From: Thermoanaerobaculia bacterium
GTDB lineage: Bacteria; Acidobacteriota; Thermoanaerobaculia; Gp7-AA8
Length of the DNA: 64,000 bases
NCBI GenBank assembly: GCA_017883205.1
Contig: JADGNZ010000012.1
Span: forward strand, 72,151 to 136,150
Direction: 5' to 3'
Part shown: piece after piece, positions 223-18,888 of the stretch
Position numbering within the stretch: position 1 is the stretch's first letter
Layout: every line of letters begins with the position of its first letter
Position numbers and translations under genes: made by a program
The notes under the pieces: generated by a model
Seen by the model: only the letters and a program-made list of their open reading frames with translations
What the model was told of the DNA's origin: nothing
Database searches by the model: none

Positions 223-231
223 GCTCGGATA

Positions 232-2047: not shown

Positions 2048-2614
2048 ATGATCGCCCAACCACTCCTGCACAAATGTTCCAACCCGCCCCGTTCGACCTC
2101 CGAAGCCGCTCATGACCGCATCCGGCGCGGCGCCACGGTTCTGCTTCTGCTCGCTCTCGCAATCGCACCATGTGCCTTCGCTAAACCTCGCGAACGCCCG
2201 ACACAAGCGCCTGACTTCTCGCTACCAGCAAACAGCGGGACGATCTCGTTGCACGACTTTCGCGGCAAAGTCGTTCTTGTGGACTTCTGGGCTTCGTGGT
2301 GCGTGCCGTGCCGCCAGTCGTTTCCCTGGATGACGAGCATGATGAATCGTTACGGCGCGCAAGGTCTGGCCATCGTCGCAGTGAACCTCGACAAGCAGCG
2401 AGACGCGGCTAACAGGTTTCTCGAGACCTTTACGCCGCCTTTCCCTGTGGCCTTTGACCCGTCCGGAAAAACCGCGGAGGGATTTCGCGTCGAGGCGATG
2501 CCATCGAGCTTCCTCGTGAGCCGCACGGGCGAGATCATCCACATATACGCCGGATTCGATCCCGGCCACGCGCAAACCATCGAAAGTCAGATCCAGGAGG
2601 CATTATCCAAATGA
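2048..2614 (+). CDS. TlpA-like thioredoxin-fold protein (exported)
   Basis: A 188-residue protein with a rather long basic N-region, a hydrophobic signal or anchor segment at about 31-45, and an AhpC-TSA/TlpA fold. It has A-P-D-F-S-L-P, the redox site W-C-V-P-C (Cys85 and Cys88), V-V-L-V-D-F-W-A-S, and a cis-proline region around E-A-M-P-S-S-F-L. Such proteins reduce or protect thiols in the periplasm, including apocytochrome cysteines. It is the first gene of a four-gene operon: its stop overlaps the next start (ATGA at 2611). A dedicated role for this operon's Cys-containing lipoprotein (C-terminal G-C-G-C-N) is plausible but inferred. Confidence 0.9.
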   Translation: MIAQPLLHKCSNPPRSTSEAAHDRIRRGATVLLLLALAIAPCAFAKPRERPTQAPDFSLPANSGTISLHDFRGKVVLVDFWASWCVPCRQSFPWMTSMMNRYGAQGLAIVAVNLDKQRDAANRFLETFTPPFPVAFDPSGKTAEGFRVEAMPSSFLVSRTGEIIHIYAGFDPGHAQTIESQIQEALSK

Positions 2615-2838
2615 TCAGAATGAGACGGTATCTCTGGCGATTCATTGCAACGGCGGCGCTCCTGCTCGCCGCTGGATGCGCGACGGTTCAACCGTGGGAT
2701 CGCGATCTTCTCGCTGAAAAGAAAATGAGTCTGAATCCCTCCCCCATGCTGCAGGCGGTGGATGAGCACATCTACTTCAGCAAAGAAGCCTCGATGGGCG
2801 GAATGGACGCAGGAGGCGGCGGATGCGGTTGCAATTAG
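2611..2838 (+). CDS. DUF4266-type small lipoprotein with C-terminal CGC motif
   Basis: A 75-residue protein starting at the ATG that overlaps the TlpA stop. Residues 1-23 form a lipoprotein signal (L-L-L-A-A-G-C23), so it should be lipid-anchored. The mature part has V-Q-P-W-D-R-D-L-L-A and a helix, and ends in a Gly-rich tail closing with G-G-G-G-C-G-C-N. I recognise this as the DUF4266 family, whose function is unknown. The two tail cysteines could bind a metal, form a disulfide, or be substrates of the neighbouring TlpA protein (inference). It overlaps the next gene by 16 bp, so translation is tightly coupled. Confidence 0.8.
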   Translation: MIRMRRYLWRFIATAALLLAAGCATVQPWDRDLLAEKKMSLNPSPMLQAVDEHIYFSKEASMGGMDAGGGGCGCN

Positions 2839-4088
2839 AGCCCGGCAAGGCTCCCAAAGTCTCCGTGCGCGATGCCTTACACGGCGCGGCATTGGCGCTG
2901 CTCATGATTCCGGCCTCGGCACAAGCTCAGTCCGCCCCTTCGGACCGCATCGACGTCACGTCACTGCTGTACGGAGAACAGGGCCGCACCGAAGTGGTCG
3001 AGCCGGTCGTCCGCTTCACGCACCTGCTGCCGGACGGACAGTCGGTCTCCGCGCAACTGGCATTCGACGTCATCACCGGAGCCTCACCCAGCGGGGCGCT
3101 ACCCTCTGGAACCGTACAGACCCGTACCAGCGCGTCAGGCCATGTCATTACGTCAAAGGCCGGGCAGATCCCGGTCGCACCCTTCCACGATGAGCGCGTG
3201 GAGCTGGAGGGCACATGGCACAAGCCGTTAAACCGCCTGGTTAGCTCCGACCTCGGCTTTCACGTTTCGCGGGAGAAGGACTACCAATCGCTCGGCATCA
3301 ACGCAAAGGTCTCGACGGAGCTGATGCGCCGCCTTCTCACTGTCACTGTCGGCGGCGGAGTCAGTCACGACACCGTATTCCCAACCGGCGGCACACCAGC
3401 GGGATTATCCGACGGGACTGTCGTCAATCTCGGAAGCAATGCCAAGAACGTCACCAATGTATTGCTCGGAGCTTCCCGCATCGTCAGCCGTCAATGGCTC
3501 GTCGCCGTCAACGGCACCGAGACGCTCGAGCGCGGATATCTGACGGAGCCTTACAAAGTCATCAGCATCATGAGCCATGTAAACGGCACGCCCATTGGCG
3601 AACTGACCGACAAGCGCCCATCCACACGCAACCGGTCGGCCGTACTGCTGAGCTCCGTCTATCACCTTTCCGACGACGTGCTCTATACGTCGTATCGCTA
3701 TTATTGGGATACTTGGAGTATCCGTTCCCACACCATTGATCTGAAATACCGTCACGACTTGGGTGACGATTCCTACATTGAACCCCTCCTCCGCTATTAC
3801 CAGCAGAGCGCGGCCAGCTTCTACACAGTTGGATTCGTGGAAGGCGCAACGCTGCCGGACTTTGCGACGAGCGATTACCGGTTGGGTAGATTGCGAACGA
3901 TCACGGCCGGCGCTACGTATAGCTTCCGGCCGGACTTCGCGGCGGGCGAATTCACCGTACGCGGCCAGTACATGCGCCAATTCGGCAATAGCTCGCCGTC
4001 CAATGCGATCGGCATCCAGCGAAACTTTGATCTCTCCCCGCCAGTCAACATCGTGGCGGTCGTGCTCGGCTATTCATTCGATTATTGA
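2823..4088 (+). CDS. DUF3570-type outer-membrane beta-barrel with putative flavinylation motif
   Basis: A 421-residue exported protein with a signal at about 16-37 ending A-S-A-Q-A. Alternating hydrophobic/polar strands follow and the chain ends in an aromatic residue (G-Y-S-F-D-Y), as in outer-membrane barrels. Near the N-terminus, D82-V-I-T-G-A-S88 fits the D-x-x-[ST]-G-A-[TS] motif at which ApbE enzymes attach FMN to the last Thr/Ser in NqrC and RnfG. The FMN transferase gene follows with a 3-bp overlap, which supports Ser88 as a real flavin site; this is inferred, not shown. I recognise the family as DUF3570. The likely role is a flavin-bearing outer-membrane redox or electron-transfer protein. 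Confidence 0.8.
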   Translation: MRLQLEPGKAPKVSVRDALHGAALALLMIPASAQAQSAPSDRIDVTSLLYGEQGRTEVVEPVVRFTHLLPDGQSVSAQLAFDVITGASPSGALPSGTVQTRTSASGHVITSKAGQIPVAPFHDERVELEGTWHKPLNRLVSSDLGFHVSREKDYQSLGINAKVSTELMRRLLTVTVGGGVSHDTVFPTGGTPAGLSDGTVVNLGSNAKNVTNVLLGASRIVSRQWLVAVNGTETLERGYLTEPYKVISIMSHVNGTPIGELTDKRPSTRNRSAVLLSSVYHLSDDVLYTSYRYYWDTWSIRSHTIDLKYRHDLGDDSYIEPLLRYYQQSAASFYTVGFVEGATLPDFATSDYRLGRLRTITAGATYSFRPDFAAGEFTVRGQYMRQFGNSSPSNAIGIQRNFDLSPPVNIVAVVLGYSFDY

Positions 4089-5023
4089 GAATTCCCTTGC
4101 AGGCAACCGCTCTCAGTGCCGAACGTGAAGGAACGAACGACGCGCCGGGTCTCCGGCGCGTCGACGATTACTTCATAGGCGAGTTTCACGCCATGGCCAG
4201 CCCATGCACGCTGCTCATCGACACGGACGACCGCACAGAGGCTGCCAAGTGTCTCGCGATCGCGAGTGCGGAGGCGATCCGGATCGAACAGAAATTCAGC
4301 CGGTACCGCCGCGACAACATCGTTTACGAGATCAACCACGCCGAGGGGCGGCCCGTCGTCGTCGATCATGAGACTGCGCTGTTGATCAACTACGCGGCGA
4401 CCTGCTATGTGATGTCCGATGGCCTGTTCGACATCACCTCGGGGGTCCTGCGCCGGGTCTGGACGTTCGACGGAGGACGCAAGGTGCCGTCGCGCCAATC
4501 GGTGGAGGCGTGTCTGCGTCACGTAGGATGGCCGCGCGTCGAGTGGCAGAACCCCGTCCTGACCATCCCCGTCGGAATGGAGATCGACTTCGGCGGAATC
4601 GGAAAAGAGTACGCCGTCGACCGCGCCGCCGCGCTGATCGCATCGCGCACGCAAAGCTCGTTCGTCGTGAATTTCGGCGGCGATCTCTACACCGCGGGCT
4701 TGCGGCGAGATGGCCGGACATGGGCAATTGGCATCGACGATCCCGGCCGCACAGGAAAGTCCGCCCTCTACCGCCTCGATGTCCCGAAAGGCGGCATCGC
4801 CACGAGCGGCGACGCCCGCCGTTTCGTGCAATGGCGCGGAAAACGCCTCGGCCACATCCTCAACCCGAAAACCGGCTGGCCCGTCGACGGCGCCCCACGG
4901 TCGATCACCGTGTTCGGCCGCACGTGCATGGAAGCTGGAACCCTATCCACGCTCGCCTACCTGCAAGGAAGGGGCGCGAGACAGTTCCTCAAGCAACAAG
5001 GCGTTCAGTTCTGGATCGTGTGA
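4085..5023 (+). CDS. apbE: FAD:protein FMN transferase (ApbE family)
   Basis: A 312-residue enzyme that would transfer FMN from FAD to a Thr/Ser of a target protein. Family motifs are present in order: G-L-F-D-I-T-S-G (113-120), D-F-G-G-I-G-K-E-Y-A-V-D (168-179), V-N-F-G-G-D-L-Y (195-202), A-T-S-G-D-A-R-R-F (239-247) and H-I-L-N-P-K-T-G-W-P (257-266). The usual C-terminal A-D-A-L-A-T metal site reads E-A-G-T-L-S-T (283-289), so the Asp is missing. The start is a TTG overlapping the barrel gene's stop; no signal peptide is visible, although many family members are exported. The most likely substrate is the adjacent barrel. Confidence 0.9.
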   Translation: MRIPLQATALSAEREGTNDAPGLRRVDDYFIGEFHAMASPCTLLIDTDDRTEAAKCLAIASAEAIRIEQKFSRYRRDNIVYEINHAEGRPVVVDHETALLINYAATCYVMSDGLFDITSGVLRRVWTFDGGRKVPSRQSVEACLRHVGWPRVEWQNPVLTIPVGMEIDFGGIGKEYAVDRAAALIASRTQSSFVVNFGGDLYTAGLRRDGRTWAIGIDDPGRTGKSALYRLDVPKGGIATSGDARRFVQWRGKRLGHILNPKTGWPVDGAPRSITVFGRTCMEAGTLSTLAYLQGRGARQFLKQQGVQFWIV

Positions 5024-5069
5024 GGGGTGGTGAATCGTCACCACGCGCCTCGAGTGCGTCCGCCAGCGA

Positions 5070-5438
5070 CTACTTCTCCTCAATCCCTGGCATGCCATCC
5101 TGGAAGGTTCGGCTGGTGAGACCAATTGCAAAGGCGAGCGCGCGATCGAGAAGGGCAATCCTTGCGGGGGACAGGGAGCCGATAAAATTCGTGAGAGAGG
5201 CCCTAGGTAGGCTCATGAGTTCGTCGCAGTGAATGCTGCTCTCGTGCTTGAGCCCCTCATCTGTGCCGACGTCGACTTGGGTGTGAATGCCATCGCGACG
5301 GGAGTAGACCGGAGCGCAGATCACGGACGAGAACGTGGAATCAAGGAGAAGTTGACGACTGACAGCAACAAAGACCCGCTGCTTCCGCGGATCTCGAGAT
5401 GTCGGGTGCTGGACAAGGTAGAGCTCTCCGCGCCTCAC
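5070..5438 (-). CDS. MazF/PemK-type endoribonuclease toxin
   Basis: A 122-residue protein starting M-R-R-G-E-L-Y-L-V, followed by [19 protein letters not shown] and the usual H-x-S-S-I-H-C-D-E-L pattern with an L-T-N-F-I-G-S-L-S tail. This is the PemK/MazF fold of ribosome-independent mRNA interferases. Its start overlaps the stop of the upstream antitoxin gene (ATGA at 5435-5438), the normal antitoxin-toxin order. It lies convergent to apbE, about 50 bp away, and separates the flavin operon from the cytochrome cluster. Confidence 0.85.
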
Positions 5439-5659
5439 AGTGGGACCTGATAGGAAAGCGCGTCTTCGGCCTCCGCGTTCAGCTCAGCCGCGTTTGCGTT
5501 GATGATCGCGAGATCTGCGGCGTCTTCATCGGGCCGGGGCCAGGCCAGGTAGGCGCGAACTGCTGCTGCAACGAGCTTGTCTCTGTCAGAGCGGTTCGGG
5601 GCGCGTTGGTCAAGTGCCTCGCTGATGTCGTCGGGTAGCGCTAGAAGCGTTTCGATCAT
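5435..5659 (-). CDS. Antitoxin of the MazF/PemK pair
   Basis: A 74-residue acidic protein directly upstream of and overlapping the toxin gene. The N-terminus ([15 protein letters not shown]) looks like a ribbon-helix-helix domain that would bind DNA and repress the pair. The C-terminus is rich in Ala, Asp and Glu, as expected for a disordered toxin-wrapping tail. Identity rests mainly on position and composition. Confidence 0.7.
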
Positions 5660-5720
5660 GGGTCAATGCTACGACTCCAGACAGACTGGAGCAATACATC
5701 GACTTTCTTTGTCTTCGCCG

Positions 5721-6239
5721 CTACTTCGCGTCGATCCCCTCGGTCGACCGCATCACCTTCTGCAGCTCTTCCTTCGTCAGCGCGTGGCCGCCCTTTGGTG
5801 CGCGGTATTCGTTGTTGTGGGAGACCATGAGGCGGTTGCTTTGGAAGTTGCCGTTGCGGGTGAGGGTGCCTTCGACGACGACGCCGATGTTTTCGCGGAA
5901 CATTTGCGGGGGGACGCCGTTCGAGGTTACGTGGACGATGCGGGCGGCGTCTTTGACGTCGAACTCGACGCCTGAGGTGCCGGGGCGGCGATGGATCGAG
6001 CCGGGGGCGACCATCCCGCCGAGGCGGATGGTGGCGCCGTAGGCTTTTTCGCCGTTGGCGTAGAGATCGGTGGGAGTCCAGTAGTAGACGAGGTTCTTGT
6101 TGATGCCGCCCATGGCGATGGCGATGAAGGCGCCGGCGGCGACGATCAGTGCGATCACCGTGTAGAGGCGGCCGCTGCGGCGGATGCTGGTCGTGGCTGA
6201 TGGGAAGGTGCGGTCGTCAGGCGTACGCATGGTGCTCAT
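5721..6239 (-). CDS. ccmE: Cytochrome c maturation heme chaperone CcmE
   Basis: The ATG at 6239 follows a CCGGAG ribosome-binding site; earlier in-frame starts up to 6302 are not needed. The 172-residue product has an N-terminal membrane anchor (Y-T-V-I-A-L-I-V-A-A-G-A-F), the OB-fold region with Y-Y-W-T-P-T-D-L, R-L-G-G-M-V and V-V-V-E-G-T-L, and the heme-binding signature H-N-N-E-Y (HxxxY), whose His attaches heme covalently before transfer to apocytochromes. It lies downstream of the multiheme cytochrome genes on the same strand and shares its pathway with ccmC and ccmD on the other side of the cluster. Confidence 0.93.
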   Translation of the reverse strand: MSTMRTPDDRTFPSATTSIRRSGRLYTVIALIVAAGAFIAIAMGGINKNLVYYWTPTDLYANGEKAYGATIRLGGMVAPGSIHRRPGTSGVEFDVKDAARIVHVTSNGVPPQMFRENIGVVVEGTLTRNGNFQSNRLMVSHNNEYRAPKGGHALTKEELQKVMRSTEGIDAK

Positions 6240-6302
6240 GATTGCTCCGGAGGACGGGGATGCGCGGCGGTGGAGGTCACGAGGCCGGGTGATGCGAGTC
6301 AC

Positions 6303-6470
6303 GTAGTGCAGACATTCTTGTCTGCTGCTGCCGGGCGTCCCTGCCCGGCAGGGGTTCGGGGCGGACGGTTGGGCCGATCAAAACCTGTCCTCGATCAATT
6401 CGAATTCAGCGCGACACACCACCGCCGGGCAGGGACGCCCGGCGGGAGCAGACAAGAATGTCTGCGCTAC
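6303..6470. repeat. 47-bp inverted repeat between the MtrB-like gene and ccmE
   Basis: Arms at 6303-6349 and 6424-6470 match at 44 of 47 positions when one is reverse-complemented, with a 74-bp spacer. Each arm contains the smaller palindromes GCAGACATTCTTGTCTGC and GCCGGGCG..CGCCCGGC. The right arm contains the stop codon of the MtrB-like gene (6467-6469). It is probably a mobile or dispersed palindromic element that may also act as a terminator. Confidence 0.85.
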
Positions 6471-8413
6471 GGGCGCCAGCGGAAGTAGAGGCCGTAGCGG
6501 GTGGCGTTGAAATCGCTGAAGAAGCCGGATGTCTCGTCGTATTTGTCGCGGTCCAATTCGGCAGCGAGGCCGGTCTTGTTCTTGAAATCCCAGGTTGCGC
6601 GGACTTTGTGGCGGTCGATGTTGAACGGGAGCGTGCCGCGGTTGTGGAAGCGCGAAAGGCTGGCGTCGATGGAGAACGGGCCCTTCAGGTAGCTCACGCC
6701 GCCTTCGCGGGCGTTGCCGTCTTCCGTCTGCACCGACTGTCCGATCGTGAAGTTCTGCGGGAAGCGGATGCTGATGTTGCTGTCGGCGCGGAACTGCGAC
6801 AGTGAGCCGCGGAAGTGCAGCGCTTCGATCGGCGACACTTCGATCTCGCCGCTGTACTGGCGAAGCTTGCTGTCGTAGCCGATGCCGGGATCGTCGTTCG
6901 ATTGATTGGTGCGCTCTGCGGTGACGCCCGCGCGGAACAGTTTCTTCGGTGTCATCCAACCGGCACGGACGCGATAGCGATTGCGGCCGCGGTAGTCGGT
7001 GCGGAAGATTGGTGCATCGGCACTATCGTGCTTCACTGCCGCACCGAGCATGAATCCGGAATGTGTGTATGCGCCGTTCAGGTCGACGGTGTGAATACGC
7101 CGGTCGAAGGTTCCGCTCTGGCTGCCCGGAACGACGATCTCAGACAAATCGGGCGACACCGTCACGTCCTGCTGCGACTCGCGAACTTCGCCGCGGAATG
7201 AGAAAGGTCCGACAGCGTGCGCGGAGATTCCGGCACTCAGGACTTCATCGGTGCGATCGATTCCGTTCGTAGCCTGGAGCACCGTGGCGATGTCTTTGCG
7301 ATCGAAACCGGAGAAGAGGATGCTCTGCAGGAAGACGTCATTGATCAATGCCGAGCCGTCCAGCTCGCGCTTTTCGCGCTGATAGCCGGCCAGGAGATCG
7401 ATGTGCGGCGTCAGATTGACTTCGGTCCGCAAGCCGCCGCGCCAAGTCTTGTTCTTCGCGGACGAGGTCGCGCTTTCCGTCAGGCCCGTGAAGAAACGGC
7501 TGATCGCGAACGATGTGAATGAACCTGCCGACGATTCGGCCTCGCTGCCGCTCGAGTCGGCGGAGAAACGGACATAGTTTCCGATCAGGCGAACGCGGTC
7601 CGTCATTTGTCCGGTGACGAAGAAGTTCGTGAACGGCGTATCGACGTGTGTCTGATCGGTGCGGGTGATCGAGGTGGCCGTAACCGGCTGCCCCAGGACG
7701 TTTCCGGGCTCGTTGCCGTTGCCTGCTCCGGACGCGAGCGACAGTGACTCCGTTCCGCGGAAGCTGCGCCAGCCCTGCGTGAGCTGGCCGGAGATCGATG
7801 CGAAGTGGAAGCTGGCACCGGCGCGGATCTCGCGATCGCGCTCGTGCAGATCCTGCGAGAGGAGGAACTCGTCCTGGCCGAGGTGATAGGTCGTCTGGCC
7901 GGGCCCGCGGTTGTCGTTGCTCGTGAATCCGATGAACGGAGCGATGGCGCGGTCGGGCAAGAGCTCGAGATCGACGTCGAACATTCGTCGCCGGCGATCT
8001 TCGGTGTGCTGGCCCGGAACGATGCCCTGGTCGAAGAGAGGATTGGCGAACGCGGGCAACGCACTGAACGCATCGGTGGATCGATAGCCGAGGCGGAGCT
8101 TGTACGCGTTGGCGCGCGAGGCTTCCATCCGTACCGATTGCGCGGGGCCGGAGCCGAGGTCGCTGACGTCGATGCGGAAGCGGTCGGTCAGCGAGTTGTG
8201 TCCCTCGAAGTCGGAGGTAGCCAGTGTGAAGTTGTGGATCAAAAGGCCGTCACGCTCATTGATCTGCGTGCGGTACATGCCGGTGTCGCCCTTGAGATCG
8301 AGCCAGCGATAGCCGATCTCGAGATCGAAGGGAACGACCTGGGCGTTGGCTGCGAAGGCAATCGCGAGGATCGGCAGTGAGAGCCAGTTCGCGACGAATC
8401 GTTTCATGTTCAT
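6467..8413 (-). CDS. MtrB/PioB-like outer-membrane beta-barrel of an electron conduit
   Basis: A 648-residue exported protein with a signal at about 1-24 (ending F-A-A-N-A). It has many amphipathic strands (F-D-L-E-I-G-Y-R-W, Y-K-L-R-L-G-Y-R-S, A-T-R-Y-G-L-Y-F-R-W) separated by polar loops, typical of a large barrel near the 650-700-residue size of MtrB. In Shewanella-type conduits MtrB is the pore that holds MtrA against the extracellular cytochrome. The gene lies 8 bp downstream of a decaheme cytochrome gene and in one run with a second, which supports that role. No cysteine is seen, so the N-terminal CxxC of some MtrB proteins is absent. The last residues lie inside a repeat arm. Confidence 0.8.
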   Translation of the reverse strand: MNMKRFVANWLSLPILAIAFAANAQVVPFDLEIGYRWLDLKGDTGMYRTQINERDGLLIHNFTLATSDFEGHNSLTDRFRIDVSDLGSGPAQSVRMEASRANAYKLRLGYRSTDAFSALPAFANPLFDQGIVPGQHTEDRRRRMFDVDLELLPDRAIAPFIGFTSNDNRGPGQTTYHLGQDEFLLSQDLHERDREIRAGASFHFASISGQLTQGWRSFRGTESLSLASGAGNGNEPGNVLGQPVTATSITRTDQTHVDTPFTNFFVTGQMTDRVRLIGNYVRFSADSSGSEAESSAGSFTSFAISRFFTGLTESATSSAKNKTWRGGLRTEVNLTPHIDLLAGYQREKRELDGSALINDVFLQSILFSGFDRKDIATVLQATNGIDRTDEVLSAGISAHAVGPFSFRGEVRESQQDVTVSPDLSEIVVPGSQSGTFDRRIHTVDLNGAYTHSGFMLGAAVKHDSADAPIFRTDYRGRNRYRVRAGWMTPKKLFRAGVTAERTNQSNDDPGIGYDSKLRQYSGEIEVSPIEALHFRGSLSQFRADSNISIRFPQNFTIGQSVQTEDGNAREGGVSYLKGPFSIDASLSRFHNRGTLPFNIDRHKVRATWDFKNKTGLAAELDRDKYDETSGFFSDFNATRYGLYFRWRP

Positions 8414-8421
8414 CGCTTCCC

Positions 8422-9396
8422 CTACTTGAGCAGTTGCGGATCGCGGTTGGAACCGTGGATCGCAACATGGCAGGTGGTGCAGTTCTGATAGCGAGCGAGA
8501 GTGAGGTTATGGAACGAGGGCGGCTGCGAGCCGAGCGTCGTGCCGCTGATGGGCGAGTGACACTCGAGACAGAGCTGCGACACGGTGGACCTCTTGAGCC
8601 GCTTCGGGTTGGACGAGCCGTGCGGCTCGTGACAGGTCATGCAATCACCGACGGCGATCGCGCCGTGCTGGAATACGAACGGTCCGCGCTTGTCGGCGTG
8701 GCATCCGAGGCATGGCAGCTCGCCGGCGGAGGTCGTCCGCAAGCTTGCGGCGCCCGGCCGGCCGTGGGGCTCGTGGCATGACGAACATTCCATCCCTCCC
8801 CTGCCGATGCGATGCGCGTACGGCTTGTTGCGGAAGGAGGAGACTTGCGTCATGTGGCAGGAGTCGCAGAGCGTGAGCTGTTTTTTCGCCAGCAGATGCG
8901 GTGCATGCGCCTCGGACGAGTGAATCGAGTGACAGGTGAGGCAGTTGACCACGGCCGAGTTGGCGTGCATTCCGGCGTGACGGGAGATGCGGTCGTTGCT
9001 GATGTCGTGACAGCTCATGCAGGTCTTGTTCGACCCGAGGAGCCCGGCCGGTTTGAAGATCTTTTCTTTGTCGCCGCCGCCTTCGATGTGCGCTTTGCCG
9101 TCGCCGTGGCACGACTCACAAAGCGCGTTAGGAACTTCACCCTTCTTGATCTGGCCGTGTGCGTGGGCGTTGGCGGCGAAGGCCTTGGCCTGATCGGCGT
9201 GGCAGTCGCTGCATGCGGGAAGTGCGGCTGGTTCCGCGGGCGTAGCGCTTGCTGCGGCGGGAGCGGTAGCGGGCGGAGTGGTTTGTGTAACAGGGGCGGC
9301 TGGCTCGGGCGGTTTCTCCGGAGGCTTCTCTTGCGCAAGCGCCGGGAGGCCCAGGAGCACTGCCAGCGCAAGTGCGCCAATCAGGTGAGATCTCAT
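8422..9396 (-). CDS. DmsE/MtrA-like periplasmic decaheme c-type cytochrome
   Basis: The ATG at 9396 begins a 324-residue protein with a clean signal peptide (1-22). A Pro/Ala-rich linker (23-60) follows, then ten CxxCH heme sites: CSDCH, CESCH, CMSCH, CLTCH, CDSCH, CSSCH, CLGCH, CMTCH, CLECH and CTTCH. Ten hemes in about 260 residues, with E-P-H-G after two of the sites, is the DmsE/MtrA pattern: a heme wire threading the outer-membrane barrel. It is followed at 8 bp by the MtrB-like gene and preceded by the OmcA/MtrC-like gene. The longer in-frame extension upstream of 9396 overlaps that gene and is rejected. Confidence 0.93.
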   Translation of the reverse strand: MRSHLIGALALAVLLGLPALAQEKPPEKPPEPAAPVTQTTPPATAPAAASATPAEPAALPACSDCHADQAKAFAANAHAHGQIKKGEVPNALCESCHGDGKAHIEGGGDKEKIFKPAGLLGSNKTCMSCHDISNDRISRHAGMHANSAVVNCLTCHSIHSSEAHAPHLLAKKQLTLCDSCHMTQVSSFRNKPYAHRIGRGGMECSSCHEPHGRPGAASLRTTSAGELPCLGCHADKRGPFVFQHGAIAVGDCMTCHEPHGSSNPKRLKRSTVSQLCLECHSPISGTTLGSQPPSFHNLTLARYQNCTTCHVAIHGSNRDPQLLK

Positions 9397-9455
9397 CGCT
9401 ATTTTCCTCAGAGCCGGGGGAGACGATGCCGTCTCCCCCGAGCCCAGGCGCTGGC

Positions 9456-11606
9456 TTACCGCGCGTGTACTTTGTCGACTGCCCAATCCTTGCCGGTGCC
9501 GTGGCATGTCGCGCACGCCTCGGCGCTGATGGTCGAACCAGGGAATACCGCGGTATTCAGGAACGCGTGCGCTGCTGCGTCCTTGTTGTCGTGGCAACCG
9601 AGGCAGGCTGCGGTGGCCGGGCCCTGCGGAGTGAAGTAATCGCGTAGTGTGGTGACCGAGGCGATGTTGGTCTGCTGCAGCGGAAGTGTGTAGGCAGCCG
9701 TTGAGGCGTGGCACTTCGCGCAGTTGCGCGTGTCGCCGGGGAAACGAACGTCATTGAAGTTGTTCGTGGAGCCCCCGAAGCCGATGATCGTGTAGTCCTG
9801 CGTTAGATTCTCGCCCGTGTGAATGCGATGGATCATGCGCTGGAAGGAGATCGACTCCGGTGCTCCGAGGCTGGCCGGACGGAGCGACTCGTCACCCGCG
9901 GTGGGGTTGTGGCAGATCACGCACTCTTCGATGTTGCGGCGCTGTCCGCCGTGCAGTTCGAGCGTGTCGTGGCACTGGTTGCACTGCGCGAGCGTTACGA
10001 CTGTCCGCCGCGGAGTGACCGCACCGGTGACGGCAACGTACTTGATCGGATTGAGCGTGGATTCCTGGATGGCGATGTCGGCCTTGCCGTCGCCGCGCTT
10101 GAGCGAGACGTTGCGGCGAAGGTCGGCGCTGATCGTCCAGGTGCCGGACGCATTCGCGGGAAGCGCGGCTGTGAACGTATAGGTCGTCGTGCCCGCGGCG
10201 GCGCTGAAGACGCCCTTGGTGATTGCGTTCTCGCGGAAGTTCGGTCCGTAGTTGGACGTCGGTCCGGCCAGAATCGGGGAGAAGGTCGCGAGCTTGGTGC
10301 CGTCGACTGCGGTGCCGTCGCCGTTTGTGATCTTGAAGACGGCCGTCGGCGACTTGCCCGGGGTCATGTTCGTGACGCTGACGACGGTGACGTTGAGGCC
10401 CTGGAGCTGTTTCGATTTCTCAGGAACGGTGTGCGCGCCCTTGATCGAGGCGTCGAATTCGAGTCCGTCCGGCTGGTGGCAGGAAGCGCAGGCATTGTCG
10501 TCGGCCTGCGGGCCGGCCGGATGGTTCGCGCCAGTGACCCAGTCGACGTCGTCGTGGCAGGATCCGCAGGCGGCGCGGCTCGGGTACGTGTACCAGACAT
10601 TCGACCCGGCGCCTTTGTTCGTGGCGACCGTGCCTTCATGGCAGTTCGCGCAATTGCGAATGTCCTGCGGAAAGACAACCGTCGAGTAGTCCTGGAGCGA
10701 TTGCGCATTTCCGATGATCTGGTACGGCGTCCCTGCGAGCACGCTGGGCAGGTTCTTGCCATCATGGATCTTGTGCGCCATCACCTTCATGTCGACCGTG
10801 TTGCCGGTGTCCGGATCAACCGTCTGCGGCTGATGGCAGAGGACGCAAAGCTTGAGGTCCAGGCGGGATCCGCCGTGGGCCGCGAGTTTGGACTGCGTGT
10901 CGTGGCAGTTGAGGCAAGTCGACGAGTCGCGCATCTTGTCCCAGGTGTTCGCCGCAACCACTGCTGCGCCGTCGGGCCGGAAGTCGTACTCGAGGTTGAA
11001 GAAGTAGTTCTTCTGAAGGGCGGGATCAATCCCGACGACCGCGGTCAGGTTGCGAGACGCGTAAATGCCGAGGGTGTGCGTCTTCGTCTGATCGAAACCG
11101 GCGGGCAGCACCGTTGTCGAATTGAACTTCGCGTGACCGGTCTCCAGATCGGTGAAGGTTCCGGCAAGAGTCCCGGCCTGCGTCGCCGATACGCCCGGGT
11201 GGGGGCTGTTGGCCGGCGTGGTCTGAACGCGCGTGCCGTACGAGGTGTAATGACGTGTGGCCGGGTCGTACCAGGCAAGCACGAAGCTCGGCGAGATCGG
11301 ACCTGGGGTCGTCTTGCCCAGCCGGTCGAGCGGCTGGTCGAGCGAGTCGGTCATGCTGAAGTCGATGACCGGCTTCCGATCTGTGCCGATCGTGATCGAG
11401 TTGACGATGATCTTCAGACCCGGGCGAATGAAGGCGACGTCGCTTGCGGTCGCATAAGCCTCGACCTGGCTCGGGGAGAAGCGGGGTTTCGCCGGCGTGG
11501 GCGCGGGCGCCGCAGCCCTTGTACGGGTATCGGCTGACAGTAGCGGAAGGGCAACCACCGCTGCCGTTGCAATCATCAAAATGGTGCGCCTGATCAGGTT
11601 GTTCAT
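9456..11606 (-). CDS. OmcA/MtrC-family decaheme c-type cytochrome (outer surface)
   Basis: The ATG at 11606 follows an excellent ribosome-binding site (TTGGAGGACCGA). The 716-residue product has a signal peptide (about 1-32), an N-terminal beta domain, five CxxCH sites (CLNCH, CVLCH, CANCH, CGSCH, CASCH), a second beta domain (about residues 330-480), and five more (CNQCH, CVICH, CAKCH, CLGCH, CATCH). The alternating split-beta/pentaheme layout and ten hemes are those of OmcA/MtrC surface cytochromes that reduce minerals or other extracellular acceptors. Unlike MtrC it has no lipobox cysteine after the signal, so its anchoring is unclear. It is the first gene of the cytochrome-barrel operon. 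Confidence 0.92.
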   Translation of the reverse strand: MNNLIRRTILMIATAAVVALPLLSADTRTRAAAPAPTPAKPRFSPSQVEAYATASDVAFIRPGLKIIVNSITIGTDRKPVIDFSMTDSLDQPLDRLGKTTPGPISPSFVLAWYDPATRHYTSYGTRVQTTPANSPHPGVSATQAGTLAGTFTDLETGHAKFNSTTVLPAGFDQTKTHTLGIYASRNLTAVVGIDPALQKNYFFNLEYDFRPDGAAVVAANTWDKMRDSSTCLNCHDTQSKLAAHGGSRLDLKLCVLCHQPQTVDPDTGNTVDMKVMAHKIHDGKNLPSVLAGTPYQIIGNAQSLQDYSTVVFPQDIRNCANCHEGTVATNKGAGSNVWYTYPSRAACGSCHDDVDWVTGANHPAGPQADDNACASCHQPDGLEFDASIKGAHTVPEKSKQLQGLNVTVVSVTNMTPGKSPTAVFKITNGDGTAVDGTKLATFSPILAGPTSNYGPNFRENAITKGVFSAAAGTTTYTFTAALPANASGTWTISADLRRNVSLKRGDGKADIAIQESTLNPIKYVAVTGAVTPRRTVVTLAQCNQCHDTLELHGGQRRNIEECVICHNPTAGDESLRPASLGAPESISFQRMIHRIHTGENLTQDYTIIGFGGSTNNFNDVRFPGDTRNCAKCHASTAAYTLPLQQTNIASVTTLRDYFTPQGPATAACLGCHDNKDAAAHAFLNTAVFPGSTISAEACATCHGTGKDWAVDKVHAR

Positions 11607-11647
11607 TCGGTCCTCCAAACGACCGTTACATTCATGTGAGACATCAC

Positions 11648-11687
11648 GCGCATACGGTAGGGTCAGTGGGAACGATCGCGTATGCGC
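11648..11687. promoter_or_regulatory. Inverted repeat in the leader of the OmcA/MtrC-like gene
   Basis: GCGCATACG (11648-11656) and CGTATGCGC (11679-11687) form a perfect 9-bp inverted repeat with a 22-bp spacer, 42 bp upstream of the leftward start. It could be a leader hairpin or a dimeric operator; the sequence does not decide. Confidence 0.45.
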
Positions 11688-11703
11688 CGCCGCACCGCTG
11701 TCA

Positions 11704-11719
11704 GGTGACACGTGTCACC
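11704..11719. promoter_or_regulatory. Perfect 16-bp palindrome in the cytochrome/ccmC divergent promoter
   Basis: GGTGACACGTGTCACC is a perfect palindrome midway between the divergent starts of the decaheme operon (11606) and ccmC (11777). Its half-sites (GTGAC/GTCAC) resemble operators of CRP/FNR-type regulators, but the spacing differs from the classic form. A shared operator that co-regulates cytochrome synthesis and maturation is a reasonable inference. Confidence 0.55.
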
Positions 11720-11776
11720 GCGTTTCGTGACCGCAGCCGCTGAGTGCCGGACACCGGACCCGTATCGTGCATCGTC

Positions 11777-12478
11777 ATGAAACGAGCAACGATCGGCTTG
11801 CCTATCATCTTCTTTTTTGCCTCCGCAGTCTGCTTATTTGCTGGAATTCTGGACGGCCTGCTGGTTGCCCCTGCCGAGCAACACATGGGCCAGGTGCAGC
11901 GAATCATGTACATCCACGTGCCGACCGCGTGGACAGCCATGCTCGTTCTGACCTGGGCCTTCCTCTGCGCGGTGATGTTTCTCTTCCGCGCAAGCTGGCG
12001 CTGGGACAGCAGGCTCGAGGCGGCCCTCGAAGTTTCCGTCCTCCTCTGCTTCCTTCTCTGTGTTCAGGGATCGATCTGGGCCAAACCGACCTGGGGCGTG
12101 TGGTGGGATTGGGATCCGCGGCTAACAACGACAGCAGTTCTGCTGATGGCCTTCGTCGGAATCGTGGCGCTACGGCACTTCCTCGCCGACGCGGCACAAC
12201 GTGCCACATGGTCCGCGGTGGCGACGATCATCGCCTACGTCGATGTGCCGATCGTCTACTTCTCGGTGAAGTGGTGGAATTCGCTCCACCAGCAGCCGTC
12301 GAGCGCGTCGACGATCTCGCGCGATTTCCTCATCCCGCTGATGCTCAATTTCGCAGGGATGCTCTTCCTCGTCATCGGCCTGATGACGATCCGCGGCCGT
12401 ACGGCGCTACTCCGTCTCGAAGATGAGATGCTGCCCCCGCCACTGCCAGCCGCAATTCCGACGGAGGTGATGGCATGA
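11777..12478 (+). CDS. ccmC: Heme export/handling protein CcmC
   Basis: The ATG at 11777 (M-K-R-A-T-I-G) gives a 233-residue protein with six hydrophobic segments. It has the tryptophan-rich WWD signature W-G-V-W-W-D-W-D-P-R-L-T (about residue 103) and conserved His residues in Y-I-H-V-P and S-L-H-Q-Q-P. CcmC loads heme onto CcmE in the periplasm in system I maturation. Its stop overlaps the ccmD start (ATGA). Divergent to the decaheme operon across about 170 bp of palindrome-rich DNA, it is well placed for co-regulation. The ccmA, ccmB, ccmF, ccmG and ccmH genes are not in the window. Confidence 0.94.
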   Translation: MKRATIGLPIIFFFASAVCLFAGILDGLLVAPAEQHMGQVQRIMYIHVPTAWTAMLVLTWAFLCAVMFLFRASWRWDSRLEAALEVSVLLCFLLCVQGSIWAKPTWGVWWDWDPRLTTTAVLLMAFVGIVALRHFLADAAQRATWSAVATIIAYVDVPIVYFSVKWWNSLHQQPSSASTISRDFLIPLMLNFAGMLFLVIGLMTIRGRTALLRLEDEMLPPPLPAAIPTEVMA

Positions 12479-12636
12479 ACGGCATCGTTACCGGAGGCTG
12501 GAACTTCGTTCTGGCCGCATACATCGTGACTGGGACAGTCCTGGTCGCCTACTCGATTCACACCATCCGCGAACTGCGGCAGAAACTCGAGATCCGCGCA
12601 GCACTCACCAGAGTCACGAAAGGAACTTCATCATGA
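12475..12636 (+). CDS. ccmD: CcmD-like small membrane protein
   Basis: A 53-residue frame between ccmC and the next gene. Its ATG overlaps the ccmC stop, and its own stop overlaps the following ATG, a four-base overlap on each side. It has a single membrane span (W-N-F-V-L-A-A-Y-I-V-T-G-T-V-L-V-A-Y) followed by a basic helix (R-E-L-R-Q-K-L-E-I-R), the standard CcmD layout. CcmD helps release holo-CcmE from CcmC. Confidence 0.88.
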   Translation: MNGIVTGGWNFVLAAYIVTGTVLVAYSIHTIRELRQKLEIRAALTRVTKGTSS

Positions 12637-13241
12637 GCAACGAACCGAAACCGTCCCGCTTCTCCGCCCGCAGCGGCTTCTTCCTCGGCGTCGCAACCGC
12701 CGCAATCATCGGTGCCCTCGCCTTCGCCGCCGTCCGCTACGACGGCAATTCAAAGACAACGACCAATGCTCAGGTAGCGCCAGTCACTACCGCCGCCGCA
12801 GCGACGACAGAAACGTTTCCGCTGGCCGAGCACGTAGCCGCGATGACCGGAACGCAGGAAAGCGTGGTCGCGCCGACCGCGCCGGCACTCGTGTCGCCGA
12901 AAGCCCCGGCAACGACACTGCTCTCCGGAACGATCGAGCTCGACCCATCCGCCGCGAGCAGCGTGCACGGAACCGTGACGGTGTTCGTCATCGCCCGCGA
13001 CAAAAAAGGCAAAGGCCATCCGATCTTCGCCAAGCGCCTCGACGTCGCCTCCTTCCCCACCAAATTCACCCTCGGCCCCCAGGACTCCATGATGGGCGGC
13101 GCCCCACCCGATACCGTCTCCGTCGAAGCCCGCATCGACCTCGACCACGACGCCATGACCAAAGAGCCCGGCGCCCCGTCAGCGAAAATCGAATCAGTAA
13201 CGATGGGCAGCAAGGATTTGACGCTGACGTTGAAGCCGTAA
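12633..13241 (+). CDS. CcmI C-terminal-domain-like membrane-anchored protein
   Basis: A 202-residue protein with one N-terminal span (about 16-36) and a low-complexity Thr/Ala linker. The C-terminal domain has G-T-I-E-L-D-P-S, V-T-V-F-V-I-A-R-D, P-I-F-A-K-R-L-D-V and F-T-L-G-P-Q-D-S-M-M-G-G. These patterns match the periplasmic C-terminal domain of CcmI/CycH, which chaperones apocytochrome c. The TPR region that normally binds apocytochrome C-termini is missing, so this is either a stand-alone partner domain or a reduced CcmI. Translational coupling to ccmD supports the link to cytochrome maturation. Confidence 0.7.
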   Translation: MSNEPKPSRFSARSGFFLGVATAAIIGALAFAAVRYDGNSKTTTNAQVAPVTTAAAATTETFPLAEHVAAMTGTQESVVAPTAPALVSPKAPATTLLSGTIELDPSAASSVHGTVTVFVIARDKKGKGHPIFAKRLDVASFPTKFTLGPQDSMMGGAPPDTVSVEARIDLDHDAMTKEPGAPSAKIESVTMGSKDLTLTLKP

Positions 13242-13260
13242 GGTTTTACTGGTCTTCTTC

Positions 13261-13320
13261 TCACGCGAAGACGCGGAGTAGGAAGTCTCTACTTCGCGTC
13301 TTCGCGTCTTCGCGTGAACC
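13261..13320. repeat. Palindromic dispersed repeat, TCACGCGAAGACGCGGAG family (copy 1)
   Basis: TCACGCGAAGACGCGGAG is followed by a short spacer and the complementary ...CGCGTCTTCGCGTGAACC arm. Related copies occur at 14092-14145 and 57351-57412. It lies just after the 3' end of the CcmI-like gene and could serve as a terminator. Confidence 0.75.
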
Positions 13321-13344
13321 AAGGGAACACGCCTCAGAACAATC

Positions 13345-13533
13345 TCACGCGCTCCGCCGCCCATTGACGACGCTGGGCGCCTTCGGCTCATAGTTGACGA
13401 GCCTCTCTTCGTTCTCCTGCTCTCTCTCCGCAAGAAAATCGCACAAGGCGTTGATGTCGCTACCGAAGCGATCCGCAAGCTCGTTACGGACGGCACGGAT
13501 TTCGGCCACAATTGGATCGTCTTCGATGTTCAT
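13345..13533 (-). CDS. Small conserved protein of unknown function (62 aa)
   Basis: Starts M-N-I-E-D-D-P-I-V-A-E-I-R-A-V-R and continues N-E-L-A-D-R-F-G-S-D-I-N-A-L-C-D-F-L. I recognise this as a common orphan small protein (D-P-I-V-x-E-I-R ... R-x-E-L) found beside toxin-antitoxin genes, but no function is established from the sequence. It is the last of three small leftward genes (13345-14019), 4 bp after its neighbour. Confidence 0.6.
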   Translation of the reverse strand: MNIEDDPIVAEIRAVRNELADRFGSDINALCDFLAEREQENEERLVNYEPKAPSVVNGRRSA

Positions 13534-13537
13534 GGTG

Positions 13538-13780
13538 TCATCTCAACGACGTGAAGATCATCGGCACGTCAGCCAGGACGATCTGCTTCACGAGGAATGC
13601 CTCGTTCCCAAACCGCCGGTAGCCATCGCGAATCGCTTCGGCCTCTCCGCCAAAGGTGCCGACGAGCTCACTGCCCTTCACGAGAGCGTACTTCCCCGCG
13701 GCCCGATCAAGCAGACTTAACCTGAGCCGCTCGAAGACCTCGAGCTCAGTCTGCAATTCGATGGTCCCGGATGTGGTCAT
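13538..13780 (-). CDS. Small conserved protein of unknown function (80 aa)
   Basis: An 80-residue soluble protein with G-K-Y-A-L-V-K-G-S-E-L-V-G-T-F followed by E-A-I-R-D-G-Y-R-R-F-G-N-E-A-F-L-V-K-Q-I. The pattern recurs in many bacteria as a small beta-alpha protein beside antitoxin-like genes. Its start overlaps the stop of the Phd/YefM-like gene (4 bp), so the two are probably co-translated. It does not look like a PIN or RelE toxin. Confidence 0.6.
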   Translation of the reverse strand: MTTSGTIELQTELEVFERLRLSLLDRAAGKYALVKGSELVGTFGGEAEAIRDGYRRFGNEAFLVKQIVLADVPMIFTSLR

Positions 13781-14019
13781 GAATCGCTCCTGCCTTCGAA
13801 TGCGTCAAGCAGATCGCCCGGGAGAGGATCATCAAAATCATCAGGCACGACGAACGACCCTGCCGCGAGACCAAAGGGCCTTGGCCGGCGTACGGCTGCG
13901 ATCGGGCGAATCTCCGCGACGGGTCGGCCATGCTGCGTAACGACGAGCGTTTCGCCTTCGATCACGCGATGGAGAAACCGTTCCGGGTCCTTCGTCACTT
14001 CTTCCACGGTGACGTTCAT
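13777..14019 (-). CDS. Phd/YefM-family antitoxin-like protein
   Basis: An 80-residue protein with the Phd fold: an N-terminal strand-helix, E-R-F-L-H-R-V-I-E-G-E-T-L-V-V-T, then Q-H-G-R-P-V-A-E-I-R-P. These antitoxins bind DNA through the N-terminus and the toxin through the C-terminus. The usual PIN or YoeB/Doc toxin is not next to it; two small unknown genes follow instead. It is either an orphan antitoxin or the antitoxin of an unrecognised partner. Confidence 0.75.
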   Translation of the reverse strand: MNVTVEEVTKDPERFLHRVIEGETLVVTQHGRPVAEIRPIAAVRRPRPFGLAAGSFVVPDDFDDPLPGDLLDAFEGRSDS

Positions 14020-14091
14020 GGCGGTTCAAGTTTAGCAAAGCTCAGCAGGGGCATTGTTTGACGCTCGTCGTGATGATCCTCGGCTCTCTTG

Positions 14092-14145
14092 TCACGCGAA
14101 GACGCGGAGGTTCTACTCCGCATCTCCGCGCCTCCGCGTGAACCA
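14092..14145. repeat. Palindromic dispersed repeat, TCACGCGAAGACGCGGAG family (copy 2)
   Basis: TCACGCGAAGACGCGGAG, a short spacer, then CTCCGCGCCTCCGCGTGAACC. It shares arms with the copies at 13261 and 57351 and ends close to the 3' end of the LexA-like gene. Confidence 0.75.
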
Positions 14146-14174
14146 ATAGAATCTGCCTCGGAGCAACTCACGCG

Positions 14175-14705
14175 CTATCGCAGGCGCTTCCGACGAGCGG
14201 ACACGCCTCGGCACCGCAGCACCCAGAGGGCCACCTCCTCGCTGACGCGGCGGCCAGCCTCCATCGCTTCTTCGCTGCTCGCGCCCGCAGCTCTCAGCGA
14301 CGAGTGGACTGCTTGCGCAGTTGCCGCCGCCAGTCCTGCGGTCGGTCCATCGAAAGCAACGTGCGGCATCACCGCGTCGAGTACGACCGTAGCCGCCATA
14401 ACCGCAACGTCCGCCGTGGACGGGACAGCGGTATCCGAGCGCGCGCTCGACCTCTCCCGCCCACCGCCGAACTCGCTCTCCGGCAGCAGCCACTCCGGAA
14501 CAGTTACCCGAAGCGATCTCGCGACACCTGGCAGGCGCGAAAGCAGACCTCGGGCGCACAACGTCTTGATCATGTTGTTGACGCTGGGCGGCGTCGTACC
14601 GAAGTGACGGCCGATATCCTCAAAAGAAGGCGCTACTCCGAACTTCTGCGTGTATCGGTGAATGAACGCCAGATACTCTCCCTGACGTGCAGTAAATGCG
14701 GCCAT
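14175..14705 (-). CDS. LexA-type winged-helix DNA-binding protein without peptidase domain
   Basis: The ATG at 14705 gives a 176-residue protein. Residues 1-70 match the LexA N-terminal winged helix (T-A-R-Q-G-E-Y-L-A-F-I, A-P-S-F-E-D-I-G-R-H-F-G, P-S-V-N-N-M-I-K-T-L, R-G-L-L-S-R-L-P-G-V-A-R-S). There is no S24 self-cleavage domain. Residues 90-176 are Ala-rich helices of unknown role ending in a basic tail. It starts 8 bp after the HicB-like gene and probably regulates that pair. Confidence 0.7.
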   Translation of the reverse strand: MAAFTARQGEYLAFIHRYTQKFGVAPSFEDIGRHFGTTPPSVNNMIKTLCARGLLSRLPGVARSLRVTVPEWLLPESEFGGGRERSSARSDTAVPSTADVAVMAATVVLDAVMPHVAFDGPTAGLAAATAQAVHSSLRAAGASSEEAMEAGRRVSEEVALWVLRCRGVSARRKRLR

Positions 14706-14712
14706 GGGTGGG

Positions 14713-14931
14713 TCAGGCGTACAGAAGGCGGCCACGAGGCTCGGGGACAGTTCTCCCAAGCTGCAGCGCGGTTTCGTTCCATTCGTCAATGACAACGCGG
14801 ACATTGGCGAGTGCAGTCTCGTACGTCAGACCATCCGCAGCGCAACCGGGAAGCTCGGGAACCTCGGCGATAAACGCCTCGTCCTCGGCGCTCCAGTAGA
14901 TGATGACTTCATAACGCGGTTCAGATTGCAT
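14713..14931 (-). CDS. HicB-like antitoxin domain protein
   Basis: The ATG at 14931 encodes 72 residues: Y-E-V-I-I-Y-W-S-A-E-D-E-A-F-I-A-E-V-P-E-L-P-G-C, then A-D-G-L-T-Y-E-T-A-L-A-N-V. This is the HicB partial RNase H-like fold. There is no added helix-turn-helix, and no HicA toxin can be read in any frame of the 155 bp upstream. The LexA-like gene follows immediately. Confidence 0.75.
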   Translation of the reverse strand: MQSEPRYEVIIYWSAEDEAFIAEVPELPGCAADGLTYETALANVRVVIDEWNETALQLGRTVPEPRGRLLYA

Positions 14932-15086
14932 CGTCCTCACCTGCCAATCGATAGCGCGTGAGCACTTGCCGCACCCTGCTTCACCTGGTACGGCTTCGCT
15001 GTCCCGTCGCGCCTCGCCTATAGATTCAAGATCTCCGTCACGACCGGCAAAACAACGAATGCGTGATCCAGCGTCTCTCCGCAAAG

Positions 15087-15689
15087 CTAGGCACCGTTCT
15101 CTCTTGCCACGAGCTTTTTCAGCAGATCGCATTCCTCGGAAAAGAAACCTTCCGCAGCGTCGCTCCCCTTCACGAGGTCCTCATATGTTAAGCGCCTGTG
15201 AAGATCGCGCCTCACTCGCCACCACGTAGCTCCGCCGTGGCGCCACGCGAGGGATGTGATCACCCGGGTGATATGCTTGACCTCGATCTCTACGTCTGCC
15301 ACAGAGGCGCCGCTGTAGCCTTCACCGAGTTTGAGGATCGACTGGACGTTTGTACGGCCAACCCGACGCATATCTGAAGCAAGCAACGGCTCAACGCCAG
15401 CAACGGCGTCGATTGTCTCAGCAAATGGCGTTCTTAGCTTATCGATTTCATCGAAAACCTGAGCCAGGCCGAGCTGGATGAGTTTCTTTCGCAAGACGTC
15501 GACTGCGGCGAAACGATCGTCAGTTAGTGGTAGAACAACAAGCAAGCGACGTCGCTCCTCGAGGAGGTCCGCCAGTGCGCGACCAACGACACGGCGGTAT
15601 TCTTGACGTGATTTTGCCAACGCCGTCGCGACCGACAGCGCCCAGCCAATAACCACCCCGACGAGTGTGCTCTCTAGCGTGAAAGCCAT
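15087..15689 (-). CDS. Membrane-anchored protein of unknown function
   Basis: A 200-residue protein with an N-terminal hydrophobic segment (about 3-24: L-E-S-T-L-V-G-V-V-I-G-W-A-L-S) followed by charged, mostly helical sequence with several R/E-rich stretches. No family is recognised. It lies in the accessory patch between the HicB-like gene and a divergently transcribed secreted protein, which starts about 75 bp away. Confidence 0.6.
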   Translation of the reverse strand: MAFTLESTLVGVVIGWALSVATALAKSRQEYRRVVGRALADLLEERRRLLVVLPLTDDRFAAVDVLRKKLIQLGLAQVFDEIDKLRTPFAETIDAVAGVEPLLASDMRRVGRTNVQSILKLGEGYSGASVADVEIEVKHITRVITSLAWRHGGATWWRVRRDLHRRLTYEDLVKGSDAAEGFFSEECDLLKKLVARENGA

Positions 15690-15764
15690 GGTGCTATCCT
15701 ACATCATCGGCTCGTGGAAACTGAGGGCATGAGTCCACCCGAATCGGCAGGATCTGGAGGATGT

Positions 15765-16667
15765 ATGTTTCGCTCCGCTTCGATTTTCGCAGCCTTGATC
15801 GCCGCATGCGCCGCTATCGGCCAGCAGTCCCCATTCGTTCGGGAAGGTTCAATTGGCGAGGTGAAGAAGGAGCAGAAGATCGGCAGTGGCACTCAGACGC
15901 TGGAACTGAATGAGTGGGTAGGCGAGAAATTCATCTTGCTTCCTCAACGCCAAAAGCTCCGCAGCTTTGGGTATCAGATGTGCGAGCCCCCATTGCCGTA
16001 CAACGAGTGGGTTGGGAAGACACTGACCGTTACAGGAGTGAGTGAGGTTCACTCCGGCCGCTCCCTCCGAAAAATAGCCTTCAAGACTGACGATGGTCGG
16101 GTAGTGAACGCCATCGCGTATGGTGACACCGTCCAAGGCATCGCGCCTCTCCGTGATCTCGCGTATGCCCGTACACGCTGGCTTGGAAAGACACTCTGGA
16201 TTCGCAGTTTTGCTCTGATTACATGGAACGAGGCGACACAGGAGTTTGGCTCATTCCAAGTCAAGAAGTACTCTCCGCTCGAGGTAACAGACGTTGTTGC
16301 CGGTTGGGACGACGCAGCACCAGTCCGTCTCGTGCTCAAGACGGCCAATGGGCAAAGTGGCTACGTGGACATCAGCATCTCAGGCACGAACGTTCCCCTC
16401 ATCTTGCGCGGATTCCGTCACTTTGACGACGGTTTCTTTGAGATCGATCCGCGAACGACTTACCACTGGGCCAAGGAGATCTGGGATGCAGTTGAGAGCG
16501 GGAAAGTTTTCGTCGGAATGACGATTGAACAGGCCCGGATGAGCTGGGGCAACCCAAAAGAAATCAATCGTACGACGACGTCCCGCGGTTCCGAAGAGCA
16601 ATGGGTGTACGGCAATGGCAACTATTTGTACGTAGGTAACGGCAAGGTTACAGCTGTACAAGACTAG
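15765..16667 (+). CDS. Secreted protein of unknown function with BamE-like C-terminus
   Basis: The ATG at 15765 lies just after GGAGG and starts a 300-residue protein with a signal peptide (M-F-R-S-A-S-I-F-A-A-L-I-A-A-C-A-A-I-G). An upstream in-frame ATG would put the signal internal. The middle is beta-rich. The C-terminal G-M-T-I-E-Q-A-R-M-S-W-G-N-P-K-E-I followed by Q-W-V-Y-G-N-G-N-Y-L-Y resembles the SmpA/BamE pattern, suggesting an envelope protein. It overlaps the convergent gene 16664-17287 by 4 bp. Confidence 0.65.
   Translation: MFRSASIFAALIAACAAIGQQSPFVREGSIGEVKKEQKIGSGTQTLELNEWVGEKFILLPQRQKLRSFGYQMCEPPLPYNEWVGKTLTVTGVSEVHSGRSLRKIAFKTDDGRVVNAIAYGDTVQGIAPLRDLAYARTRWLGKTLWIRSFALITWNEATQEFGSFQVKKYSPLEVTDVVAGWDDAAPVRLVLKTANGQSGYVDISISGTNVPLILRGFRHFDDGFFEIDPRTTYHWAKEIWDAVESGKVFVGMTIEQARMSWGNPKEINRTTTSRGSEEQWVYGNGNYLYVGNGKVTAVQD

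Positions 16668-17375: not shown

Positions 17376-18888
<1,513 letters not shown>

Follow-up and report, generated by a model that had tools for sequence, protein, structure and literature searches.

Does a soil acidobacterium of the class Thermoanaerobaculia possess a conduit of the MtrCAB type which carries electrons through its outer membrane, and do the ccm genes found at the flanks of this conduit actually serve it? Both had been claimed in a first-pass annotation of the analysed stretch of 64,000 nucleotides (hereafter the window), which described a complete trans-outer-membrane heme wire with its own maturation genes. As revealed by six-frame analysis, only two open frames rich in heme motifs are present across the 64-kb window and both are located within the reported locus. 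They form, together with a barrel gene, a block on the minus strand (6467-11606) in the transcription order OmcA/MtrC-family cytochrome, DmsE/MtrA-family cytochrome, barrel. The features of the locus are as follows:

2048-5023, plus strand: flavinylation cluster (Pfam)
5721-6239, minus strand: CcmE paralogue, heme chaperone (Pfam CcmE, E 4e-26)
6289-6302, no strand: another GTGA-N6-TCAC box, 49 nt ahead of the ATG of ccmE
6303-6470, no strand: inverted repeat with 53-nt arms and 62-nt spacer, between mtrB and ccmE
6467-8413, minus strand: MtrB-type outer-membrane beta-barrel (648 aa, no Cys, fold match 6R2Q_B)
8422-9396, minus strand: DmsE/MtrA-family decaheme cytochrome (324 aa, 10 CxxCH, TIGR03508)
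9456-11606, minus strand: OmcA/MtrC-family decaheme cytochrome (716 aa, 10 CxxCH, TIGR03507)
11705-11718, no strand: GTGA-N6-TCAC palindrome resembling a CRP site, in the promoter region shared by the divergent omcA and ccmC
11777-12478, plus strand: CcmC paralogue, heme-handling permease (Pfam E 4e-24, NCBIfam)
12475-12636, plus strand: small CcmD-like membrane protein of 53 aa, its frame overlapping those of both neighbours
12633-13241, plus strand: CcmI-like protein with one TM segment and a CycH Ig-like domain (Pfam Ig_CycH, 2.4e-13)

The claimed succession of three conduit genes on one strand holds. With the likely ATG starts the intergenic gaps amount to 59 nt (OmcA-DmsE) and 8 nt (DmsE-MtrB), and the open frames of OmcA and DmsE overlap solely when upstream non-ATG starts are taken. 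All flanking genes are present as annotated as well, ccmE on the strand of the conduit and ccmC, ccmD and the CcmI-like gene divergently.

Both cytochromes are, as annotated, decaheme members of the respective families. Each contains ten CxxCH motifs, a number far above that found in 2,000 residue shuffles, none of which exceeded two (mean 0.02 for the OmcA/MtrC-family sequence; maximum 2 for either protein). The OmcA/MtrC-family protein scores 459 bits against TIGR03507 (cut-off 209, E 2.7e-137) and the DmsE/MtrA-family protein 214.5 bits against TIGR03508 (cut-off 192, E 1.7e-63; both NCBIfam). Sequence matches of the former within the PDB are MtrF, OmcA, UndA and MtrC, and OmcA, UndA, MtrC and MtrF are also the best Foldseek matches of its predicted structure. 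Since the quality of this model is only moderate (pLDDT 61) we base no claim about interfaces on it. The DmsE/MtrA-family protein aligns with chain A of PDB entry 6R2Q (E 9.5e-37) over a region spanning all ten hemes; the molecule name of this chain is apparently mislabelled in the sequence search, the title of the entry being "Structure of the Mtr complex". Ten histidines outside the heme motifs are invariant in the OmcA alignment (n=11 sequences) and nine in that of DmsE (n=8 sequences). These residues are candidate distal ligands, and the pattern fits, as expected, bis-His hemes in both cytochromes.

For the third protein, sequence searches of PDB, Pfam and NCBIfam yielded nothing usable, so that a comparison of folds was needed. 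The alignments used for structure prediction were shallow and taken from related loci (9 sequences for MtrB, 11 for OmcA). The AlphaFold2 model of MtrB, obtained with nine natural sequences (pLDDT 77.5, pTM 0.69), shows 27 strand elements, in agreement with the about 26 strands of an MtrB-type barrel (26 in Shewanella MtrB; PMC7198977). Foldseek ranks chain B of 6R2Q, Shewanella MtrB, first (E 4.8e-13, TM 0.65), the other listed matches reaching a TM of at most 0.49. A second aligner superimposes 546 residues of the model on the same chain (Z 26.2, 3.8 Å), compared to Z values of at most 16.6 for all other barrels. Homologues of this MtrB adjoin OmcA and DmsE in relatives of the class. The annotated MtrB-like barrel is hence confirmed at the level of the predicted fold, and the concern that no barrel able to hold the DmsE-like cytochrome might be present is not borne out by these single-chain models.

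The OmcA family is found above cut-off in 38 of the 149 Thermoanaerobaculia genomes, and inspection of the well-covered loci shows the order OmcA-DmsE-MtrB to be kept in about twenty of them. In the OmcA tree the sequences of the class constitute one clade (support 99/96) and are grouped largely by family, while the Acidobacteriia/Terriglobia-labelled sequences L036-L039 fall outside of it in a separate clade. As the tree follows families, inheritance of the conduit within the class looks mainly vertical, i.e. MtrCAB appears to be passed on vertically, instead of being acquired sporadically, in a soil lineage most of whose members are uncultured. One genome (G012) harbours two copies. Mtr genes are shared by an iron reducer of the same class, as one MtrC and two MtrA have already been noted for a Thermoanaerobaculum aquaticum MAG in the available part of PMC9671151, which describes neither ccm paralogues nor lipidation nor a donor pair for it.

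Taken together, the cytochrome families, the candidate distal histidines, the MtrB fold and the conserved order support the view that the locus very probably encodes a trans-outer-membrane electron conduit of the MtrCAB type, an estimate which does not extend to the inferred accessory steps addressed below. Against this assignment we count that OmcA lacks a lipid anchor, that GspD stays below cut-off and that the putative donor pair is unlinked to the conduit in this genome. In the assembled conduit the DmsE/MtrA-family protein would reside inside the MtrB barrel, allowing electrons to cross the outer membrane via ten bis-His hemes. It would then hand them to the decaheme MtrC/OmcA outside the cell, from where Fe(III)/Mn(IV) minerals, humics or another cell may receive them as extracellular acceptors.

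The fact that TIGR03508 is named for DmsE suggests an alternative, namely that the outer-membrane components work for a dedicated terminal reductase outside the cell, in the same way as DmsEF of Shewanella works for a DMSO/iodate reductase. The dmsEFAB system uses paralogues of MtrA and MtrB. An extracellular role of DmsEFAB, described in PMC9732548, points in the same direction. In the present locus, however, a decaheme MtrC-type protein occupies the place of the reductase. Moreover, the surroundings of the cluster revealed no recognisable gene for a molybdopterin reductase, and none recurs in the neighbour clustering of the class loci, whose annotation is partial. We thus consider a dedicated reductase highly improbable.

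The core of the MtrCAB-type conduit represents a known kind of system; its variant features are the missing lipid anchor, a paralogous heme-loading set and a candidate donor pair. With Shewanella MtrCAB (6R2Q; PMC7198977) it shares the decaheme MtrC family, the decaheme MtrA family, the MtrB fold and the adjacency of the three genes. In contrast to the Shewanella protein, which has a lipid anchor and uses type II secretion for its export (PMC12175506), MtrC is not a lipoprotein here. The N-terminus of the window OmcA is of the Sec type, and a lipobox cysteine is absent from it as well as from all complete OmcA N-termini of the class inspected; the gammaproteobacterial OmcA/MtrC of locus L043 does possess a lipobox. 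A search for type II secretion with GspD alone as marker reached 191 bits at best, which falls short of the cut-off (351). The window MtrB further differs from that of Shewanella, to which it is about 10% identical, by lacking the N-terminal CXXC: it contains no cysteine at all and its homologues within the class contain at most one, while MtrB of L043 carries CANC. This suggests that MtrC can do without a lipid anchor and MtrB without CXXC. Phylum and core genes are shared with the MtrCAB Group 5 of Acidobacteriia/Bryobacterales (PMC8805035), and the Terriglobia/Acidobacteriia-labelled proteins of L036 and L039 also lack a lipobox. Compared to that group, the window OmcA belongs to a clade apart from L036-L039, and the tetraheme gene reported downstream of mtrB, corresponding in position to a frame with 4 CxxCH which follows mtrB in L036 and L039, is missing; ccm paralogues adjoin instead.

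A further difference from Shewanella concerns the inner membrane. A stand-alone CymA (small tetraheme NapC/NirT) was not found, the NapC/NirT matches of the genome being confined to larger multiheme proteins, and the candidate partner differs. It consists of an 11-heme (undecaheme) c-b561 fusion of 633 aa and an adjoining hexaheme protein with a NapC/NirT domain, both encoded on contig C100 and hence outside the window. Next to the conduit, orthologues of both proteins are present in G001 (81-82% and 85% identity) and G009 (69-71% and 72%), and an orthologue of the hexaheme protein in G002 (65%). Because the pair adjoins the conduit in relatives it is the best donor candidate and, judged from these gene neighbourhoods, likely the inner-membrane donor, which would accept electrons from the quinol pool. 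The fusion is comparable by design to Geobacter CbcL, in which a b-type membrane domain is joined to a multiheme c domain (PMC9129911); it has 11 instead of 9 c-heme motifs and is accompanied by the hexaheme NapC/NirT protein. The annotated "complete" wire is consequently complete for the outer membrane, whereas its inner-membrane donor lies beyond the window.

Further large cytochromes were encountered during these searches. Contig C100 also encodes a cytochrome in which 21 hemes are combined with a b561-type membrane domain (L086, 1585-4494); a 19-heme protein encoded close to the G033 conduit shares 52% identity with it. Beside the G012 conduit (L062, 1259-4225) a cytochrome b (b6-like) frame runs into an 11-heme cytochrome, and related cytochromes are present near the conduits of G002 and G009. 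Contig C41 of the window genome encodes a protein of 1015 aa (L087, 6267-9311) which matches the heme domain of MtrC/MtrF and contains nine CxxCH as well as a PKD-like domain.

The direction of electron flow, which we assume to be outward, deserves consideration. MtrAB-type conduits are reversible in principle. The genome contains three genes of the heme-copper-oxidase (COX1) family, so that extracellular respiration need not be the main metabolism of the organism. These oxidases would also provide the electron sink for a conduit operating inward, in which Fe(II), Mn(II) or a partner cell donates electrons to the aerobic chain as in MtoAB/PioAB-like systems. The presence of an MtrC-type extracellular cytochrome, as in reducers, and the resemblance of the c-b561/NapC-type proteins beside the conduits of relatives to quinol oxidases argue against this. 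We therefore regard inward flow as unlikely and outward flow as the likelier direction.

Whether the MtrCAB-type conduit has "its own maturation genes" is the second part of the question. The claim stands insofar as ccmC, ccmD, ccmE and a CcmI-like gene are linked to it. It fails insofar as these are paralogues only: a complete ccmABCDEFGHI set is present on contig C42 of the same genome, so the window genes are additional, and ccmA, B, F, G and H are missing from the linked set. The paralogues retain their catalytic motifs. CcmE, of which the genome has two copies (window and C42), keeps the heme-binding motif HxxxY as HNNEY (residue 141), and the tryptophan-rich motif WGVWWDWDPRLT is intact in CcmC, a paralogue of the C42 copy. 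The CcmD-like protein matches Pfam CcmD below cut-off (E 0.0095), yet its size and position fit and relatives have a gene in the same position. The CcmI-like protein comprises only the Ig_CycH domain and no TPR, while full-length CcmI with TPR is encoded at C42. Maturation genes also adjoin mtrCAB in six published clusters (PMC8805035), where ccmA-I is complete; here, the linked genes are confined to ccmC, D and E and to a ccmI fragment with the Ig domain alone, paralogous to a full operon elsewhere.

Among 21 genomes searched, two ccmC copies occur only in the window genome (G000), G001, G002 and G009. In all four, i.e. the window genome and three relatives, the second copy lies divergently beside omcA, a linkage spanning two genera. 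In a tree the four linked copies are split from 13 housekeeping copies with a support of 100/100, their monophyly depending on the distant outgroups. A ccmE adjacent to the conduit is seen solely in the window genome; the G001 contig stops just past mtrB, which limits the view there, and in G009 the second ccmE is located about 38 kb off. The CcmE tree exhibits no deep separation of the copies and leaves the duplication undated.

In the divergent omcA-ccmC intergenic region of the same four genomes we observe the palindrome GTGA-N6-TCAC, whose half-sites are invariant while the spacer varies, in G001, G002 and G009 at a similar distance. In the remaining loci of the class that were tested (18 of 21), the 350 nt preceding omcA do not contain it. 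The palindrome resembles the consensus of CRP, in Shewanella an activator of omcA and mtrC (PMC4417206). Two sites occur in the 64-kb window compared to 1.27 expected, the other one just upstream of ccmE. Evidence from the window alone is thus weak; it is conservation and placement which carry the argument for a regulatory role. A putative regulator of the CRP/FNR family would probably switch on both halves of the locus, conduit and ccm paralogues.

On this basis we tentatively propose that the second CcmC-CcmD-CcmE heme-loading set and the Ig-only CcmI may form a client-specific maturation branch, co-regulated with a non-lipidated MtrCAB, which feeds housekeeping ligation for a wire of 20 hemes; we hold this to be possible, though rather doubtful. 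The extra CcmC/D/E would probably load heme onto the second CcmE during synthesis of the conduit, and this CcmE would then supply the housekeeping Ccm ligation machinery. Alternatively, the linked genes are unrelated to the conduit and were duplicated nearby by chance. The complete operon at C42, the adjacency of ccmE in this genome only, the shallow CcmE tree and the lack of linked ccm genes in most conduit-bearing relatives are in accordance with this explanation, whereas the ccmC linkage kept across two genera, the intact catalytic motifs and the conserved CRP-like box in the shared promoter region, with a second one before ccmE, speak against it; we grant chance linkage an appreciable probability, albeit below even. 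If the paralogues do serve the conduit, they would offer a test of heme supply as a dedicated bottleneck for long heme wires which, if real, bears on moving such wires into E. coli.

The two arms of the inverted repeat between mtrB and ccmE (6303-6355 and 6418-6470), identified by repeat search, are 91% complementary. As it parts mtrB from ccmE, a simple reading of ccmE as the final gene of the mtr operon is improbable. The repeat, reminiscent of a REP or MITE-type element, contains GCAGACAAGAATGTCTGC, an 18-nt motif unique within the window, and a GC-rich core. Scans for sigma-70 promoters and terminators gave no excess over chance, and Rfam yielded no match in window positions 1-20000. A search of a plasmid collection gave one weak match.

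Near ccmE lies the flavinylation cluster, a gene set already described (PMC8238504) and composed of a TlpA/ResA-like thioredoxin (2048-2614), DUF4266 (about 2611-2838), DUF3570 (2823-4088) and ApbE (4085-5023). In the window DUF3570 the [S/T]GA[S/T] motif occurs once in strict form, compared to two motifs reported for the family. We did not accept this cluster as a part of the conduit: DUF3570 is present in 2 of 20 relatives (G002 and G006), there on a contig apart from the conduit, and the cluster was not seen adjoining the conduit in relatives. Between apbE and ccmE, a gene for a PemK/MazF-type toxin (5070-5438, minus strand; Pfam E 2.6e-12) is preceded by a small open frame just upstream which probably encodes the antitoxin. 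Beyond the CcmI-like gene, a weak Phd/YefM antitoxin match (13777-14019, minus strand) is followed by an 80-aa frame, and a protein with a LexA-type DNA-binding domain is encoded near the cluster at 14175-14804 (minus strand).
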